From positions 1 through 55,283 of the forward strand of contig NSKI01000014.1 of the NCBI GenBank assembly GCA_003586005.1: DNA of 55,283 nt. The letters are read 5' to 3'. The notes beneath the pieces are model-generated. The model saw only the letters and a program-made list of their open reading frames with translations, was not told the origin of the DNA and did not search any database. The DNA is from Haloplasmatales bacterium 4B (GTDB lineage Bacteria; Bacillota_I; Bacilli_A; Haloplasmatales; Haloplasmataceae). A program made the position numbers and the translations under genes. This document shows positions 9,177 through 49,157 of the stretch, in pieces. How positions within the stretch are numbered: position 1 is the stretch's first letter; every line of letters begins with the position of its first letter.

Positions 9177-9265
9177 GTAAAATAATATTGGTTACAATTG
9201 AAGTTTTGAATAAAACCTATTTAAAACAACTCTTTTTTTTATAGAATAACAGCAAGGAGGTAAGT

Positions 9266-12052
9266 ATGAAAAAAATAGTTTCTTTACTGTTTTTAATAAT
9301 CACTTTAACAGTTACAGTACTCTTTGAAAATAAAATCTTTGTAAATGCAGCTGATGATTTGAAAATTATCGTTCATTATCATCGATTCGATAATAATTAT
9401 TTAAATTGGGATCTTTGGATATGGCAAAATCAACCAACGCCGAAAGATGGAAAAGCTTTTGTATTTACAAGTGAAGATGAATTTGGAAAGGTAGCCGAAA
9501 TAAATTTATCTGAATTAACCGATTATGACGCGCTGAATCCAGCAACGGAGATTGGATTTATTGTTCGTGAAGGGTCATGGGATGCAGGACGAGAACCAGG
9601 TGGAGATCGATTTATCGATTTATCAAATCCTAATGAAAATAATGAAGTTCATGTATATCTTATCACGAATGATGAATCAGTTTATTTAGATCGGGCTTTA
9701 GCTGATGTTTCTCCACAATTTATTTCTTCATCATTTTCATCATTTACTACCATCAACTTTATGACTACTGAGTCAGTTATAAATACACTTCAATTTAAAG
9801 AATCAATTTATGTATTAGGAGATGGTTTAGAAATGGATATTACCAATATTGTGATGAACCCAGATAATAGAAGTGGTAGTCTTACATTAAAAGATACCAT
9901 TACCTTTGAAAAAGATTATTTAATTGGTTCATCTAATTTTTCTAAAGATTTGTTAATTAATAAATCTAAATTATTTGATAGTGATGAATTTGCCAGTAAT
10001 TATGTGTATGATGGGGATGATTTAGGCGCAATATATACAAAAACTGCAACAACATTTAAAGTATGGGCTCCTACTGCCTCAAAAGTGGAAGTAGTCTTAT
10101 ATCATAGTGGTGATTATCGTAATGGATTTATTACTGATACGAAAGAACCTACTGATTTAAGAGCTGTTTTACAGATGGCTCGCTCTGATAAAGGAACTTG
10201 GCTTCTTAAGGTTAATGAAGATTTAAATGGTGTGTATTATACGTATAAAGTCACTTTTGGAACAAGATCGGTGGAAGCTGTTGATCCATATGCCAAAGCA
10301 GTTGGTGTCAACGGGAATAGGGGAATGGTTATTAACCTTGAAAGCACTAATCCAGAGCGGTGGGTAGAAGAAAAGCCAGCGTTTATTCATTATAATGATG
10401 CCATTATTTATGAATTGCATATAAGAGACTTATCTATTCACAGTAGCAGTGATATTCAAAATAAAGGTAAATATTTAGGACTCATCGAAACAGATACTAA
10501 ATATAATTCAACTAAAACTGGTCTTGATCACTTAAAAGATTTAGGGATAACACATCTACACCTTTTACCAACCTTTGATCATCGATCTATTGATGAAACA
10601 AACTTAGAAATACCACAATATAATTGGGGATATGATCCTTTAAACTTTAATGTGCCTGAAGGATCCTATTCAAGTAATCCAACACTAGGTGAGGTTAGAA
10701 TCAATGAATTTAAACAGATGGTTCAGGGTTTACATGATAATGATATTCGGGTTGTCATGGACGTTGTTTATAATCATTTAGGCGATGCAGCTTCATCAAG
10801 TTTTGAAAAAATTGTTCCAGGTTATTATTTTCGTTATAACAATAACGGAGAGTATACGAATGGTTCAGGAGTTGGGAATGAAACAGCTTCAGATCGCGAG
10901 ATGTTCCGTAAATTTATGATTGATTCCTTAAAATATTGGGCAACAGAATATAATATAGATGGATTTAGATTTGATTTAATGGCGGTTCATGATATCGAAA
11001 CAATGAATTTAATTCGTCAAACTTTAAATGATATTGATCCAACCATTTTAATCTATGGTGAAGGTTGGACAGGTGGTGCCTCACCACTTCCTGAGAATGA
11101 ACAAGCATTAAGAACAAATGTGGCTCAAATGCCAGGGATTGCGGTATTTAATGACATTACCCGTGATGGAATTAAAGGTTCAGTATGGGAGGACACAGAT
11201 AAAGGATTTATTCAAGGAACTGGTAATGCTCAGGATGTTATGTTTGGTATTGTTGGTGGAATTGAACATCCCGATACTAGTAATTATTGGGCATTAAGTC
11301 CTAATCAAATTGTTAACTATGTTGAAGCACATGATAACTTGACCTTATGGAATAAATTAGCGTTATCATTACCTAATGCATCAGAAAATACTCGATTAAG
11401 TATGGACAAACAAGCCGCTGCTATCGTTTTGACAAGTCAAGGGATACCTTTCTTGCATGCTGGTCAAGATTTTTTAAGATCTAAATCATCTGGTGGTACG
11501 TTTGATGATAATAGTTATAATGCACCAGATAAAGTAAATCAACTTAGATGGGATTATAAAGATGAGAATTATCAAATATATGAATATTATAAAGGCCTAA
11601 TTGAGTTAAGAAAGGCGCACCCAGCCTTTAAAATGGGGAACGCTGAAGAAATTAATAAGAAATTAAGATTCTTCGATACCGGTGTCGATAAGGTAATTGG
11701 CTATACTATTAATGATGCAACAGGAGATGAGTGGGATAAGATTGTTGTTTTATTCAATGGAAATACTTCTGGACAACGCTATGTCACTTTACCTGAAGCT
11801 GGAACCTATAATATTGTCGTTGATCTAGCTAGAGCTGGAACAGAAACGATTAGAACAATAAATGATAGTGGTATTGAACTTCGCCCAAATGAATCAATCG
11901 TCATGTATATGACTGATGATACAACAAATCCGATCAATGATTTAACAGATAATAAACGAGATATTTCTAAAATATTGATTGGTGTATCAATTGGCGTTGT
12001 TTTACTTGTGGGGGCAGGTGTATCCTCTATCTATTTCAAAAATAAATTCTAA
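9266..12052 (+). CDS. pulA: Secreted, membrane-anchored type I pullulanase
   Basis: The enzyme cleaves alpha-1,6 branches of pullulan, starch and glycogen at the cell surface. The 928 residues read in order: signal peptide (about 1-29, ending FVNAA), a CBM41-like domain (about 33-135, HYHRFDNNYLNWDLW), a CBM48-type domain (about 250-345, TFKVWAPTASKVEVVLY), and the GH13_14 catalytic domain. That domain carries YNWGYDP (about 452-458, diagnostic for type I pullulanase), VVYNHLGDA, DGFRFDLMA (nucleophile Asp570), YGEGW (Glu599) and VEAHDN (Asp690). A C-terminal hydrophobic helix (about 900-922) followed by KNKF implies a membrane anchor, not an LPXTG wall anchor. SD AAGGAGG precedes ATG 9266. 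It probably feeds debranched dextrins to the intracellular enzymes encoded upstream. Confidence 0.95.
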   Translation: MKKIVSLLFLIITLTVTVLFENKIFVNAADDLKIIVHYHRFDNNYLNWDLWIWQNQPTPKDGKAFVFTSEDEFGKVAEINLSELTDYDALNPATEIGFIVREGSWDAGREPGGDRFIDLSNPNENNEVHVYLITNDESVYLDRALADVSPQFISSSFSSFTTINFMTTESVINTLQFKESIYVLGDGLEMDITNIVMNPDNRSGSLTLKDTITFEKDYLIGSSNFSKDLLINKSKLFDSDEFASNYVYDGDDLGAIYTKTATTFKVWAPTASKVEVVLYHSGDYRNGFITDTKEPTDLRAVLQMARSDKGTWLLKVNEDLNGVYYTYKVTFGTRSVEAVDPYAKAVGVNGNRGMVINLESTNPERWVEEKPAFIHYNDAIIYELHIRDLSIHSSSDIQNKGKYLGLIETDTKYNSTKTGLDHLKDLGITHLHLLPTFDHRSIDETNLEIPQYNWGYDPLNFNVPEGSYSSNPTLGEVRINEFKQMVQGLHDNDIRVVMDVVYNHLGDAASSSFEKIVPGYYFRYNNNGEYTNGSGVGNETASDREMFRKFMIDSLKYWATEYNIDGFRFDLMAVHDIETMNLIRQTLNDIDPTILIYGEGWTGGASPLPENEQALRTNVAQMPGIAVFNDITRDGIKGSVWEDTDKGFIQGTGNAQDVMFGIVGGIEHPDTSNYWALSPNQIVNYVEAHDNLTLWNKLALSLPNASENTRLSMDKQAAAIVLTSQGIPFLHAGQDFLRSKSSGGTFDDNSYNAPDKVNQLRWDYKDENYQIYEYYKGLIELRKAHPAFKMGNAEEINKKLRFFDTGVDKVIGYTINDATGDEWDKIVVLFNGNTSGQRYVTLPEAGTYNIVVDLARAGTETIRTINDSGIELRPNESIVMYMTDDTTNPINDLTDNKRDISKILIGVSIGVVLLVGAGVSSIYFKNKF

Positions 12053-12124: not shown

Positions 12125-13411
12125 TTATTCATTATTCATAACTTGTAGGATTAAGAAACCATAATTACCTATTTCAACTGTTTTGTCAATGGTAATATGG
12201 GTATCTGAATATAAGTCAATGCATTGTTTACCAACAAGTTCATTAATCAATAGAGTGATATTTGAATCCTCTTTATTGATAATGACATAAACAGTTTCTT
12301 CTTTAGACTCTTTTTTATAAACGATTTGATTGTTTGAATTATCAACTTCTATCCATGTTAAATCTACTTCTCGTAATGCGGTATGGGTTTTTCGAAGTTT
12401 AATTAGTTTTTGTATGTGCGTAAACATCTGTAAATCTTGCTTTTTTTTATCCCAAATCATACAACGACGATTGTCTGGGTCATGCCCGCCTGCTAAACTA
12501 ATTTCACCTCCGTAGTAAATACTTGGAGTTCCACCAAATGTTTGTTGGAAAACATAGGCTAATTTAACTTTTTCCTTATTTCCTTGACAGATGGTTAAAA
12601 TTCGAGTTGAATCATGACTGTCTAATAAGTTAAATAAATATTGACCGATGTGTTTTGGGTAAGTAGTTAACAATCTATTGATATCGCTTTTGAAACATTC
12701 ACTAGATCCGTTAGTATAACCAAAGAATTTCCATACAGAAAACATAAAATCATAATTCATAACTGATTGCATCTGATCAGGTTGTATCCAAGGATTTGAT
12801 TCATCCCAATTTTCCCCAACGATGAAAAAATCTTTCTTTACACTGTCACATGCTTTTCTAAAGTCGCGCCAGAATGAGTGATCAACCTCATTTGAAACGT
12901 CTAATCTCCAGGCATCGATATCGCACTCTTTAATCCAGTACATAGCTACGTTTAATAAATGTGCTTTTACTTCCTTATTTTCTGTATTCCATTTTGGCAT
13001 GAAGGGTGTAAAAGCAAAGGTATCATAGTTTAATGTGCTTGTTTCATCATCAAATCTAAATTTCTTCGGATCCCCTTCAAAAATAGGGAATTTTTTAATA
13101 TGGAAATAATCTTTATATGGAGAGTTTATACCATTTTTTAATACGTCTTGGAAAAAGGGGTGATTCCAACCGCAATGATTAAATACAGCATCTAACATCA
13201 CCTTTATCCCGCGTTTATGGGCTTCTTTGACTAACCTTTTCATTGTTTCGAGATTTCCAAATTGTGGATCAATTTGAAAATAATCTTCTGTATCATATTT
13301 ATGAGTAGAAGGTGACTTGAATATTGGGGTAAAGTAAATTCCTGTTGCCCCTAATTTTTGTATATAATCTAATTTTTTGATTACGCCATCTATATCTCCA
13401 CCAAAAAACAT
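12125..13411 (-). pseudogene. 5'-truncated neopullulanase/cyclomaltodextrinase (GH13_20 type)
   Basis: The 428 codons encode a neopullulanase-like barrel. Region I is VMLDAVFNHCGWNHPFF, region II DAWRLDVSNEVDH with nucleophile Asp171, region III IVGENWDE with Glu200, and region IV LLDSHDSTR with Asp267. However, the frame begins at MFFGGDIDGV. In full-length relatives this motif follows an N-domain of about 120-150 residues and the first barrel strand with its YQIFPDRF-like motif. Upstream, the frame is open for only about 23 low-complexity codons (a Tyr run) to a stop near 13483. No SD precedes the first ATG. All catalytic residues remain but the N-domain and strand beta-1 are gone, so activity is doubtful. 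The break faces the divergent lacI-type gene. Confidence 0.8.
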
Positions 13412-44813: not shown

Positions 44814-47222
44814 ATGTTATTACCTTTAAAATGGTTAAAAAGTTATGTAGATATTAGTGGAATTAGTGCAAATGATTTAGCTAAGAAAATTACTTTATCA
44901 GGAATAGAAGTTGAACGAGTATATCCTATGTCTAAAGCAACAAATTGCGTAATTGGACATGTATTGGAAAAAACAAAGCACCCACAAGCAGACAAATTAA
45001 GCGTTTGTCAGGTTGATTTAGGAAGTGAAGTTACACAAATAGTGTGTGGCGCTCAAAATGTAGACAAGGGTCAAAAAGTGGTTGTATCGAAGGTTGGTGC
45101 AACCTTACCTGGTGGAGTAAAAATTAAAAAAGCAAAATTACGTGGTGAAGAATCAAATGGAATGATCTGTTCATTAAAAGAATTAGGTATTGAAAATAAG
45201 TTTATACCTCAAGAATTTCAAAATGGAATTACAGTATTAGATGAAAAAGCTCCTGTTGGAGTAGATGCTATTGAATATTTAGGATTTAATGATACAATTT
45301 TAGAGCTGAGTTTGACACCTAATCGTTCTGATTGTTTGTCGATGTTGGGAATAGCTTATGAGGTATCTGCTATTATAGATAAAGATATAAATAAACCATA
45401 CGGTGAAAAAATTGCATATTCTATAAACCCAAATTTCAAAGTGAAAATTAATTCAGATGATTGCCCACTTTATTACGCGAAAACAATTAAAAATGTTAAA
45501 ATAAAAAGATCACCAGAGTGGTTACAAAGTGCCCTTATATCTTGTGGAATTCGTCCAATAAATAACGTTGTTGATGTAACAAATTATGTTATGCTTGAAT
45601 TAGGTCAACCGCTACATGCCTTTGATTTTAAAAAATTAAATAGCGATGAAATTATTGTAAGAAATGCGTTTAAAAATGAAACTATTGTAACATTAGATAA
45701 CATTAAAAGAGAATTATTACCCACTGATTTAGTTATCACAGATGGGAAAAAACCAATTGCGATAGCTGGAGTAATGGGAGGGCAAAATACTGAAATTGAT
45801 GAAAATACGTGCGATGTAGTTTTAGAAAGTGCAGTTTTTAACCCTTTAACAGTACGTAAAACTTATACAAGACTAGGTCTACGTAGCGAATCAAGTATTC
45901 GTTTTGAGAAAAAGGTTGATCCAGAAAGGACAATATATGCCTTAAATCGTGCTTGTCAATTATTAGTAGAATTAGTAGATGCTGAAATTGATGATAAATT
46001 ATCAGTAGAAAATAATATTAATGATAAAATTAATTCAATTGAGATTAAGTTAGAAAAGATTAACCGTGTTTTAGGAATAACTTTATCTGATGAAGATGTA
46101 TCTTTAGTTTTTAGAAAATTAAAATTTGATTATAAACTATCAAAAGGAACTTTTGTAGTTATAATTCCTTCTCGAAGACCAGATATTATGATAGCAGAAG
46201 ATTTAATTGAAGAAATTATAAGAATCTATGGTTATGATAAATTAAATAAAACACTGCCTCAAACAAATACCGTCGCCTCACTTTCAGAAAATCAACTAAA
46301 AATCCGTAAAATAAAAAGTGTGTTATTAGCTCAAGGTTTAAATGAAGTAATGACCTATTCTTTAACAAATCCGAAATATTTTAATCGTTTTTCACACCAT
46401 GAAGTAAATAGTTTATTACCAGTTAAATTGTCAATGCCAATAAGTGAAGAAAGGTCTTTTATGAGACCGGGATTAATCCATAGCTTAGTTGAGGTTATGA
46501 GTTATAATAATGCTCGCAAAAATAACAATGTGTTTTTATTTGAATTAGGAAAAAGGTATTATTTAAATCAAGGTGAACCATGTGAGAATATGGTTTTAGC
46601 TGGTGCATGCTCTGGTGTAATAGTTGAAAATAAATGGCAAAAGAAAAAAGAAGTTTGTGATTTCTATTATGTTAAAGCTATTATAGAACAAGTTTTTGAA
46701 AAAATGAGTTTAGATAAACAAATTTCTTTTGCACAAGCAGATAAGTCTGTTGGAGCTGATTTTCATCCAAGTAGGTCGGCATATATTCTTTATAAGAATA
46801 AAGAAATTGGAATTATTGGCCAAATTCATCCAAATAGCCAAAGAGAATATGATATTAATGAAACATATGTTTTTGAAATTATTTTAGACCAAGTATTAGA
46901 TGCAAAATTGGAAGAAAATAAATTCAAAGCAATTTCAAAGTATCCAACTGTTACTAGAGATATAGCTATTGTTGTTGATAAAGATATTACTGTAAGTACA
47001 TTGAGTCAAGCTATAGCAAGTAAGGGTGGGAGAAATTTAAAATCTGTACAAGTATTTGATGTTTACAATGGTAAAAATGTTGATAAAGGGAAAAAATCAA
47101 TAGCGTTTTCATTAATGTTTGAGAATGTTGAAAGAACATTAACTGATAATGATGTAAATAAGATATATGATAAAGTTGTTAAGCATCTAGAGGATAGTTT
47201 TAATGCGATTTTGCGCAAATAA
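44814..47222 (+). CDS. pheT: Phenylalanyl-tRNA synthetase beta subunit
   Basis: The 802-residue subunit of the Phe enzyme has the expected domain order. An N-terminal tRNA-binding OB fold (VIGHVLEKTKHPQADKLSVC) comes first, then the B3/B4 editing domain (RPINNVVDVTNYVMLELGQP, GVMGG). Next are B5 (RRPDIMIAEDLIEEIIRIYG), the catalytic-like fold (FMRPGLIHSLVEVMSYN, FELGKRY), and the C-terminal FDX-ACB anticodon-binding domain (KYPTVTRDIAIVVDKDI). SD AAGGAGG precedes the ATG. The length and all domains are normal. Confidence 0.97.
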   Translation: MLLPLKWLKSYVDISGISANDLAKKITLSGIEVERVYPMSKATNCVIGHVLEKTKHPQADKLSVCQVDLGSEVTQIVCGAQNVDKGQKVVVSKVGATLPGGVKIKKAKLRGEESNGMICSLKELGIENKFIPQEFQNGITVLDEKAPVGVDAIEYLGFNDTILELSLTPNRSDCLSMLGIAYEVSAIIDKDINKPYGEKIAYSINPNFKVKINSDDCPLYYAKTIKNVKIKRSPEWLQSALISCGIRPINNVVDVTNYVMLELGQPLHAFDFKKLNSDEIIVRNAFKNETIVTLDNIKRELLPTDLVITDGKKPIAIAGVMGGQNTEIDENTCDVVLESAVFNPLTVRKTYTRLGLRSESSIRFEKKVDPERTIYALNRACQLLVELVDAEIDDKLSVENNINDKINSIEIKLEKINRVLGITLSDEDVSLVFRKLKFDYKLSKGTFVVIIPSRRPDIMIAEDLIEEIIRIYGYDKLNKTLPQTNTVASLSENQLKIRKIKSVLLAQGLNEVMTYSLTNPKYFNRFSHHEVNSLLPVKLSMPISEERSFMRPGLIHSLVEVMSYNNARKNNNVFLFELGKRYYLNQGEPCENMVLAGACSGVIVENKWQKKKEVCDFYYVKAIIEQVFEKMSLDKQISFAQADKSVGADFHPSRSAYILYKNKEIGIIGQIHPNSQREYDINETYVFEIILDQVLDAKLEENKFKAISKYPTVTRDIAIVVDKDITVSTLSQAIASKGGRNLKSVQVFDVYNGKNVDKGKKSIAFSLMFENVERTLTDNDVNKIYDKVVKHLEDSFNAILRK

Positions 47223-47284: not shown

Positions 47285-47339
47285 ATTGGGAGTTAATCGA
47301 AAAATGACGACAAACTAAACACTATAAATATCATATAAG

Positions 47340-47353: not shown

Positions 47354-47438
47354 TTATAATAAGTAAACAATTTGCACAAATAAAAAATATATAGTTACTA
47401 TTATATTATTTGATAAAATAAAAGAGGGTGAGAAGTTC

Positions 47439-48419
47439 ATGAACGAAAAATTATCAGAAAAGGTGGTTTTATATAGAATAAATAATAATGACAAAAATGA
47501 GATCAATGAACCAATAGGAACTTATATAAAACGTGAAAGAGTAGCTCAAGGATTAAATCAAGATTTTGTTTGTAAAGATATATGTTCTATATCATATTAC
47601 AGTAGAATTGAAAATAATGTTATTCAACCATCTAGTGAATATATTGAAAAAATATACAAGAAGTTAAATAAGCCTATACCAAAGTTTTCATCTAGTAAGG
47701 TAGATAAAGAATTAATAAATAATTTTCTTTTAGCTATTGAATACAGAAACAAAAATCTGATTGAAATGGAATTTGAGAAAATAAAGAATAATCAAAATAT
47801 AAATAATACATTATACCATTTTATCTATCACTCATTTCATAAAAATACTGATAAACTTGAACATTATATTAAGATACTACATAAACAACAAGCTAATTTT
47901 GATGATGATGAATTAGTTATTTATCTTGAAAATTTGTCTAGCTATTATATACAAATATGTGATTATATTGAATCAGAAAAATATTTATCTTTAATTTTAT
48001 TATTATTAAAATCAAAAAATTACAAAAAACCAATGGTTTTATATAAGTATGCTTGGGTACTTGGGAAATTAAATGATGATTTGAAATGTATTTATTATGC
48101 TGAAGAAGCAGATAAATTATTTGTTGAAAATCAAAATATTTATCGTTCTGTGCAATGTAAATTGTTAATCGCAATTAAAATGAGTAATAAGTTCCCAAAT
48201 AAGGCAATAAAAATATATGAAAATATAATTAAAATATCAATTCTATGCGGAATTGATGATGTTCAAAAAATTAGCCAATTTAATCTAGCTATATTGTATA
48301 AAAAATGTAGCTGTATCAAAGAAGCCGAAATTAATTTTCGTAAATTAATAAAAATTTATAATAACGATTTACCATTTATGAGTAATGTATATATAGAATT
48401 TATTGATAAATTATTTTAA
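47439..48419 (+). CDS. XRE-TPR regulator, RRNPP (NprR/PlcR-like) quorum-sensing type, possibly truncated
   Basis: The 326-residue frame has an XRE helix-turn-helix at about residues 27-78 (IGTYIKRERVAQGLNQDF, DICSISYYSRIENN). Degenerate TPR-like helices follow to the end (YLENLSSYYIQICDYIESEKYL, ISQFNLAILYKKCSCIKEAEINF). This is the layout of RRNPP regulators, which bind a re-imported peptide in the TPR groove. A secreted-peptide gene follows, as for PlcR-PapR and NprR-NprX. After the TAA at 48417 the same frame continues (second stop at 48456) to a TGA overlapping the peptide ATG. An ancestral protein of about 436 residues, closer to NprR size, is therefore likely. The 326-residue form may be functional or damaged. 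SD GAGGGTGA precedes the start. Confidence 0.75.
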   Translation: MNEKLSEKVVLYRINNNDKNEINEPIGTYIKRERVAQGLNQDFVCKDICSISYYSRIENNVIQPSSEYIEKIYKKLNKPIPKFSSSKVDKELINNFLLAIEYRNKNLIEMEFEKIKNNQNINNTLYHFIYHSFHKNTDKLEHYIKILHKQQANFDDDELVIYLENLSSYYIQICDYIESEKYLSLILLLLKSKNYKKPMVLYKYAWVLGKLNDDLKCIYYAEEADKLFVENQNIYRSVQCKLLIAIKMSNKFPNKAIKIYENIIKISILCGIDDVQKISQFNLAILYKKCSCIKEAEINFRKLIKIYNNDLPFMSNVYIEFIDKLF

Positions 48420-48458
48420 CAAATGAATTCAAAAGAAGAAAAGCAACAGATAAACTGA

Positions 48459-48749
48459 TTAAAAAATATTAATATAAGATCAGAAAAACATAGATTTTAT
48501 ATTAAATATTTTTCTATTAAGTTTATAAAAGATGAATTAAGTACACAAATTTCATTTTATAAACATGAATTTATTCCCTATTCTATGAAGACTAAAAATA
48601 AAGATATGCAAATTAGAATTAGGAAAGAATATGTTGAATTATTGGAAAAAAATTGTAATTATGAAGATTGTGTAAATGAATATAAAAACTTATTGTTATT
48701 AATTGATGAGAGAAGCAAGAATATTTCATCATATAAGGAGGAAAAATGA
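48459..48749 (+). pseudogene. In-frame 3' continuation of the regulator beyond two stops
   Basis: In the regulator's own frame, 96 open codons run from after TGA 48456-48458 to TGA 48747-48749. The encoded chain is helical and charged (SEKHRFYIKYFSIKFIKDEL, RKEYVELLEKNCNYEDC, NEYKNLLLLIDERSK), as expected for further TPR helices. It has no SD or start of its own, and its stop overlaps the ATG of the peptide gene by four bases (ATGA). This fits a C-terminal TPR segment cut off by nonsense mutations, or one reached by read-through. Confidence 0.6.
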
Positions 48750-48874
48750 AAAAAATTGTTATTTTTTTACTAGTTTGTTTTTTATTTGTAAGTATTAAAC
48801 CAGCTATAGAAAATATTGAAATTGTTGGTGAGAAATATCCAGATCCAAATTCAGTTAGTAGTGATTATTTATAA
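48746..48874 (+). CDS. Putative secreted signalling-peptide precursor (PapR/NprX/Phr-like)
   Basis: The 42-residue precursor begins MKKIVIFLLVCFLFVSIKPA, a signal-peptide-like stretch, followed by a 22-residue polar propeptide (IENIEIVGEKYPDPNSVSSD, then YL). A strong SD, AAGGAGG (48735-48741), lies five bases before the ATG. Precursors of PapR, NprX and Phr peptides have the same size and layout, with a mature 5-8-residue peptide cut from the C-terminal part; here this could be the region NSVSSDYL. The gene directly follows an RRNPP-like regulator and overlaps that frame's final stop. It is new as far as I can tell; no homologue was searched. Confidence 0.7.
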   Translation: MKKIVIFLLVCFLFVSIKPAIENIEIVGEKYPDPNSVSSDYL

Positions 48875-48947: not shown

Positions 48948-49157
48948 ATGGTAAAGTTAAGAATAATATATAATTATGAAAAGAAAATTTGGGAATTGTT
49001 TCATGAGGATTTAATTGAAAGAATTGCGTGTAATCATAATGTTTATAATTTAATAGTTAGTGCTAATACTATCGCAAAATTAATTAAACCAGCACAAATA
49101 GTTTTTGTGCCTCAAAATTTATTGAAAGAAATTGTGATTAACGAATATATTGAATAA
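48948..49157 (+). CDS. Small protein of unknown function
   Basis: I do not recognise this 69-residue protein (MVKLRIIYNYEKKIWELFHE, then HNVYNLIVSANTIAKLIKPA, ending EIVINEYIE). It has no signal peptide or membrane helix and looks mixed alpha/beta. AGAGGTG gives a good ribosome site for ATG 48948, and a terminator follows closely, so expression is likely. A TTGACA at 48897-48902 has no well-spaced -10. It could belong with the quorum-sensing pair upstream or be unrelated. Confidence 0.6.
   Translation: MVKLRIIYNYEKKIWELFHEDLIERIACNHNVYNLIVSANTIAKLIKPAQIVFVPQNLLKEIVINEYIE

Follow-up and report, generated by a model that had tools for sequence, protein, structure and literature searches.

The locus at positions 47,439–48,874 of contig NSKI01000014.1 of Haloplasmatales bacterium 4B (the 55,283-nucleotide stretch analysed here, hereafter the window) is probably a peptide-signalling pair of the RRNPP family, belonging to the Haloplasmataceae and lying on the NprR side, whose receptor is cut by two stop codons in the window. 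The initial annotation had taken it for a working cassette of this type. The layout, the fold and the position of NprR as nearest solved relative agree with an RRNPP-type pair, but a working regulator gene is missing: the regulator frame (47,439–48,749) contains two internal stops ahead of its last stop, TGA at 48,747–48,749 (Table 1). The uninterrupted receptor gene needed for a working RRNPP cassette is absent from this genome, and reading the locus as a working cassette would miss the broken receptor.

Table 1. Features of the regulator-peptide locus (window positions)
Feature	Position	Strand	Basis
pheT, conserved upstream neighbour	44814..47222	+	ORF list; 3' end aligned in 8 genomes
Candidate operator 1: upstream palindrome TTTGCGCAAA, within the final pheT codons	47210..47219		comparison of 8 upstream regions
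Candidate promoter ACGACA-16-TATCAT, weak consensus match, between the palindromes	47307..47334	+	block conserved in 8 genomes
Candidate operator 2: downstream near-palindrome TTTGCACAAA, 68 bp ahead of the regulator ATG	47371..47380		comparison of upstream regions
Truncated RRNPP-type regulator ORF, 326 aa (HTH and about 6 of 9 TPRs)	47439..48419	+	ORF reading; aligned to intact relatives
In-frame stop no. 1, TAA	48417..48419	+	frame reading
In-frame stop no. 2, TGA	48456..48458	+	frame reading
Receptor C-terminus remnant (TPR7 end to TPR9), outside the translated ORF	48420..48749	+	alignment
Shine-Dalgarno AAGGAGG, four bases before peptide ATG	48735..48741	+	sequence
42-aa prepropeptide gene, ATG overlapping the last stop of the regulator frame (ATGA)	48746..48874	+	ORF reading, conservation, codon positions
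Candidate pheromone core GEKYPDP, conserved	48827..48847	+	comparison of peptides
69-aa protein, conserved downstream neighbour, function not assigned	48948..49157	+	relatives' loci

Because the TAA and the TGA both lie in frame, the encoded regulator has 326 residues instead of about 432. It carries, as previously described, an XRE-type HTH domain (PF01381, 32.5 bits, above the cut-off, residues 30–81) followed by TPR-like repeats. After the second stop, the remnant shows 37% identity to the Haloplasma protein (genome G001) in alignment columns 327–436. Two intact relatives, G001 and G006, show 33% identity over these columns. The remnant is thus as similar as intact relatives are to each other, and the loss of the receptor looks recent. 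The cut corresponds to helix 310–326 of the modelled Haloplasma relative, in the middle of TPR7, and about a quarter of the receptor is missing, with the residue matching NprR Y410 among the losses. NprR carrying both N407A and Y410A is monomeric and inactive (PMC4970707), and the lost part covers the region used by NprR for dimerisation. Recoding of TGA was rejected as an explanation of the frame because TAA also interrupts it; TGA is seldom used as a stop here, ending one of 33 long ORFs of the window. Most likely, as judged from the reading frame, the strain still makes the peptide and cannot respond through its own broken receptor.

The stops may have originated either from two nonsense changes or from a pair of compensating frameshifts. 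In the stretch between them, another frame matches the relatives somewhat better, with shuffled-null fractions of 0.07 and 0.17, neither of them decisive. This better fit would also agree with an error in the 77-contig draft assembly, for example compensating indels in the nearby T and A runs, the receptor being intact in the living strain; the preservation of the frame past the second stop, close to that of the intact pair, points the same way. Such an error is unlikely. Judged by eye, the window's remaining protein genes look full-length, which speaks against frequent frame errors in the assembly, and in a second genus the receptor at this locus has been broken independently. In the genome of that genus (G004), a stretch of the regulator is deleted and the frame lost, and the prepropeptide gene beside it is intact (L034, reverse complement, about 9211–10,480). 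Alternatively, the cut might be adaptive and not a sign of decay, with the 326-aa product acting as a dominant-negative form or as a functional repressor that needs no peptide. It does retain the HTH and the groove asparagine discussed below, and Mycoplasmatota relatives keep a regulator with no peptide gene, so that peptide-independent forms probably exist. A functional short form is nevertheless very unlikely, since the cut passes through a TPR helix and removes the NprR dimerisation region, and the downstream remnant is undecayed, as after a recent loss.

The gene that follows the regulator frame largely bears out its first description as a tiny gene with a strong Shine-Dalgarno sequence, a signal-peptide-like N-terminus and a start codon sharing four bases with the preceding stop. 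The hydrophobic leader and the polar tail ending in NSVSSDYL were both recovered, the export leader being called from hydrophobicity alone. Counterparts adjacent to the regulator were found in G001 (MKKIIAILLLSLLVAIGFNYAVNEVEITGEKYPDIICVQVK), G006 (MKKLIMILLFCMMLVAMKSSIINNVCADLVDGEIYPDPFISLG) and G004 (MKTLKKLFIVVCLVGLFMGGLKAYASKTLDPLEGEEYPDPLTIFFLK). The counterpart in G005 is longer, about 110 aa, with a C-terminal GGDEKLPDPV, and in G003 the contig opens with the tail PDIVTVLPIK directly before the 69-aa neighbour gene. The Haloplasmataceae peptides have in common a core [GD]-E-x-[YL]-P-D-[PI], PDP or PDI being present in all six, and differ in their last residues. The strict core motif was present in 18 of the 25 listed peptides, compared with a mean of 0.2 and a maximum of 3 in shuffles. 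As the core is conserved and the terminal residues are not, a signal centred on GEKYPDP appears more likely than the terminal 5–8-mer of NSVSSDYL that had been proposed. Between the window and G001 peptide genes, differences were seen at position 2 in 8 of 40 codons and at position 3 in 22 of 40, the pattern expected of coding DNA. DNA identity over the whole stretch was discarded as a coding sign: it was alike in the peptide gene (57%) and in the following spacer (61%), which leaves the codon-position pattern as the informative one. By these sequence criteria the peptide ORF is more than a chance ORF, and is a real gene recurring across genera of the family.

It is highly improbable that the small protein is an ordinary membrane or secreted protein placed beside the regulator by chance. 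Its secretion and activity are predicted and the G005 counterpart is much longer, which would suit an ordinary protein; against this, the position, the same or nearly the same overlap and the core motif recur in separate genera, and the gene co-occurs with the peptide-binding asparagine across Bacillota.

The regulator was found in all eight genomes examined from the Haloplasmataceae, the family of the window, whose nearest relatives include a Haloplasma contractile MAG and an uncultured Haloplasmataceae bacterium. It is full-length (428–433 aa) in G001, G002, G005, G006 and G007, and runs off the contig end in G003. The search of related genomes suggested in the initial annotation showed that the regulator and the secreted-peptide gene recur across related genera between pheT and the 69-aa gene, with the peptide gene at the same position in G001, G004, G005 and G006. 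Relatives conserving the regulator without any peptide gene had been named as evidence against the pair; this situation was found in part, in one genus, g3 (G002 and G007), which has intact receptors and no adjacent peptide gene. The inspected regions around other HTH regulators of the window genome gave no convincing second pair of NprR-like receptor and peptide gene. Two Haloplasmataceae genera may have separately lost the receptor and kept the pheromone gene because signalling without answering is favoured ("deaf but speaking"), or because the peptide has another target, either an unlinked second receptor or neighbouring cells, a reading that we consider rather unlikely. The 69-aa gene lies beside the regulator in all Haloplasmataceae genomes examined, and relatives of it occur beside a similar regulator in two other genomes of the class (L015 and L028). 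Its product had no match in Pfam or NCBIfam.

The intact Haloplasmataceae regulators consist of an HTH and nine TPRs. The structure model of the intact Haloplasma receptor had a mean pLDDT of 91, and its first PDB match with Foldseek was NprR (5dbk, E 9e-9); Rap was matched as well. The family profile searched against the PDB likewise returned NprR first (4gpk, E 6e-13), then RapI and PlcR. RRNPP/RRNPPA receptors are defined by a superhelix of 5–9 TPRs, which the intact relatives possess and which in the window copy is cut in TPR7, and by a neighbouring short propeptide gene with an export leader, which is present here (leader from hydrophobicity). Direct sequence similarity is low. Aligned directly by BLAST to the TPR domain of NprR, the window protein reached at best 24% identity over 177 residues, and the identity of the family to NprR stays below 25% over any long stretch. 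RRNPP_detector assigns to the NprR subfamily receptors with at least 30% identity to NprR over 80% of the length (PMC10075063), and the Haloplasmataceae receptors consequently fall outside it. In the tree, a branch with 99% SH-aLRT support parts NprR, the Bacillaceae and the Haloplasmataceae from the peptide-less Mycoplasmatota receptors. Membership of the wider RRNPP family, peptide binding aside, is well supported, and we place these proteins on the NprR side of it, as a new lineage that presumably binds a peptide. A tethered chain of receptor, linker and propeptide, which occurs in Bacillus tianshenii as a natural read-through, was folded; the peptide had a pLDDT of about 30 and was not placed. 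No published mention of Haloplasma with RRNPP systems was found in the texts searched.

A homologue scan with the single window protein as query gave no matches; with the alignment as query it returned 80 related loci, mostly from Bacillaceae, Planococcaceae and Mycoplasmatota. All 41 related loci with an adjacent peptide call have the asparagine that corresponds to N275 of NprR. Among the 33 loci that lack it a single one had a peptide call, apparently spurious, and 21 loci had the asparagine and no call. The Fisher test gave p = 6e-10, a value that overstates the association, as the rows are related and not independent. In RapF the corresponding residue is N227, which holds the peptide backbone; with alanine in its place, binding is abolished (PMC3601957). 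Within the Haloplasmataceae, the asparagine is present in the window, G001, G002, G005 and G006, and is replaced by L in G007, where the receptor lacks a neighbouring peptide gene. The Mycoplasmatota relatives have kept the regulator and have neither the asparagine nor an adjacent peptide gene. Many Bacillaceae and Planococcaceae loci have a neighbouring prepropeptide of 38–118 aa with a looser version of the core, acidic-x-[HYLI]-P, in some cases in tandem copies. Downstream of the receptor at loci L102, L110, L118, L121 and L061, such tandem prepropeptides include six HESHPDP units in Bacillus suaedaesalsae, three SEPDHPKIV units in Metabacillus and Peribacillus, and two KDEHPP units in Anoxybacillus. 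One contig titled Gammaproteobacteria (L084) encodes a regulator end nearly identical to that of a Bacillales MAG (L103) and is probably misbinned.

Two 10 bp sites were found in all eight Haloplasmataceae upstream regions. The nearer one lies 66–69 bp before the regulator start. The farther one is most distant in the window, at -229; it lies at -216 in G004 and between -207 and -209 in the other six genomes. TTTGCGCAAA or a one-base variant occurs in seven genomes. In G005 the sites are TTTGAGAAAA and its reverse complement TTTTCTCAAA, which indicates that both changed together. Where the upstream site overlaps the end of pheT it contains CGC, a rare codon that accounts for 6% of the Arg codons in the window. 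The spacing of the two sites is 139–141 bp in six genomes, 150 bp in G004 and 161 bp in the window, corresponding at 10.5 bp per turn to 13.2–13.4, 14.3 and 15.3 turns. The spacings differ by close to whole turns and the sites keep the same helical phase across genera, which suggests autoregulation by DNA looping. Binding of the regulator to the palindromes would be the basis of such a loop, by analogy with PrgX of the Enterococcus plasmid pCF10: the PrgX tetramer joins two operators, and helical-phase-dependent looping was established by experiment in the PrgX-cCF10 system (PMC5552905). PrgX differs in its five-TPR fold, which belongs to another clan (PMC12700828), and in the 91 bp distance between its sites. 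The eight regions also have in common a block similar to GACAAA-N7-ACTA-N2-TA-N-ATC (about 47,307–47,334 in the window), a candidate promoter or third binding site. As a regulon box, TTTGCGCAAA was rejected: most of its further copies lie inside unrelated coding genes, and only the local pair is credited.

We propose that in the intact relatives the leader would export the prepropeptide (41 to about 110 aa), which after cleavage would yield a short peptide around [GD]-E-x-[YL]-P-D-[PI]. An oligopeptide permease would re-import it; oligopeptide-binding (SBP_bac_5) proteins are encoded in all eight Haloplasmataceae genomes. The groove of nine TPRs may then hold the peptide through the conserved asparagine, and the bound receptor may alter its own binding to the two palindromic operators flanking its promoter, thereby controlling its own operon, peptide gene included. 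With the last quarter of its receptor gone, the window strain would make the peptide and have lost the response.

Among the closest known systems is NprR-NprX of the Bacillus cereus group, in which an HTH and nine-TPR receptor with the groove asparagine N275 is followed by a 42–43-aa prepropeptide, and which gives the best PDB match by profile and by fold. The peptides NprX SKPDIVG and EKYPDP/EKYPDI have a P-D pair in common, with only two or three residues shared. The Haloplasmataceae locus differs in receptor identity (<25%), in its start-stop overlap, in the broken window receptor and in its neighbourhood. The uncharacterised pairs of Bacillaceae and Planococcaceae (Sutcliffiella, Psychrobacillus, Metabacillus and others) lie on the same side of the receptor tree and share the acidic-x-[HYLI]-P core, as in KDEHPDPLPNG and NDYPDTQEVQV. 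However, their receptors are only about 15–22% identical, core variants such as EIPRPTS occur, some have two to six tandem core copies, and the TTTGnnCAAA pair is absent upstream. Rap-Phr systems share the TPR fold and the backbone-binding asparagine (RapF N227), but Rap has no DNA-binding HTH and acts on response regulators.

The link to sporulation suggested at first was not supported. The relatives' locus adjoins pheT, and the residues of NprR that contact Spo0F (D107, Y118, E188 and Y223) are not kept in the MAFFT alignment, whereas the HMM alignment retains some of them. All eight Haloplasmataceae genomes encode Spo0A. Nothing ties the regulator-peptide locus to sporulation; its neighbours are pheT and the 69-aa protein.

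These observations would extend NprR-side peptide signalling to the Haloplasmataceae, a family close to wall-less bacteria, and would place its boundary at the Mycoplasmatota relatives, whose regulator comes without peptide gene or asparagine. The locus yields candidates for the signal core and for a pair of operators with a directly testable spacing, as well as a natural case of receptor loss. Elsewhere in the window, an alpha-amylase-like ORF of 428 aa on the minus strand (12,125–13,411) seemingly lacks its N-terminal part and abuts a divergent LacI-type gene.
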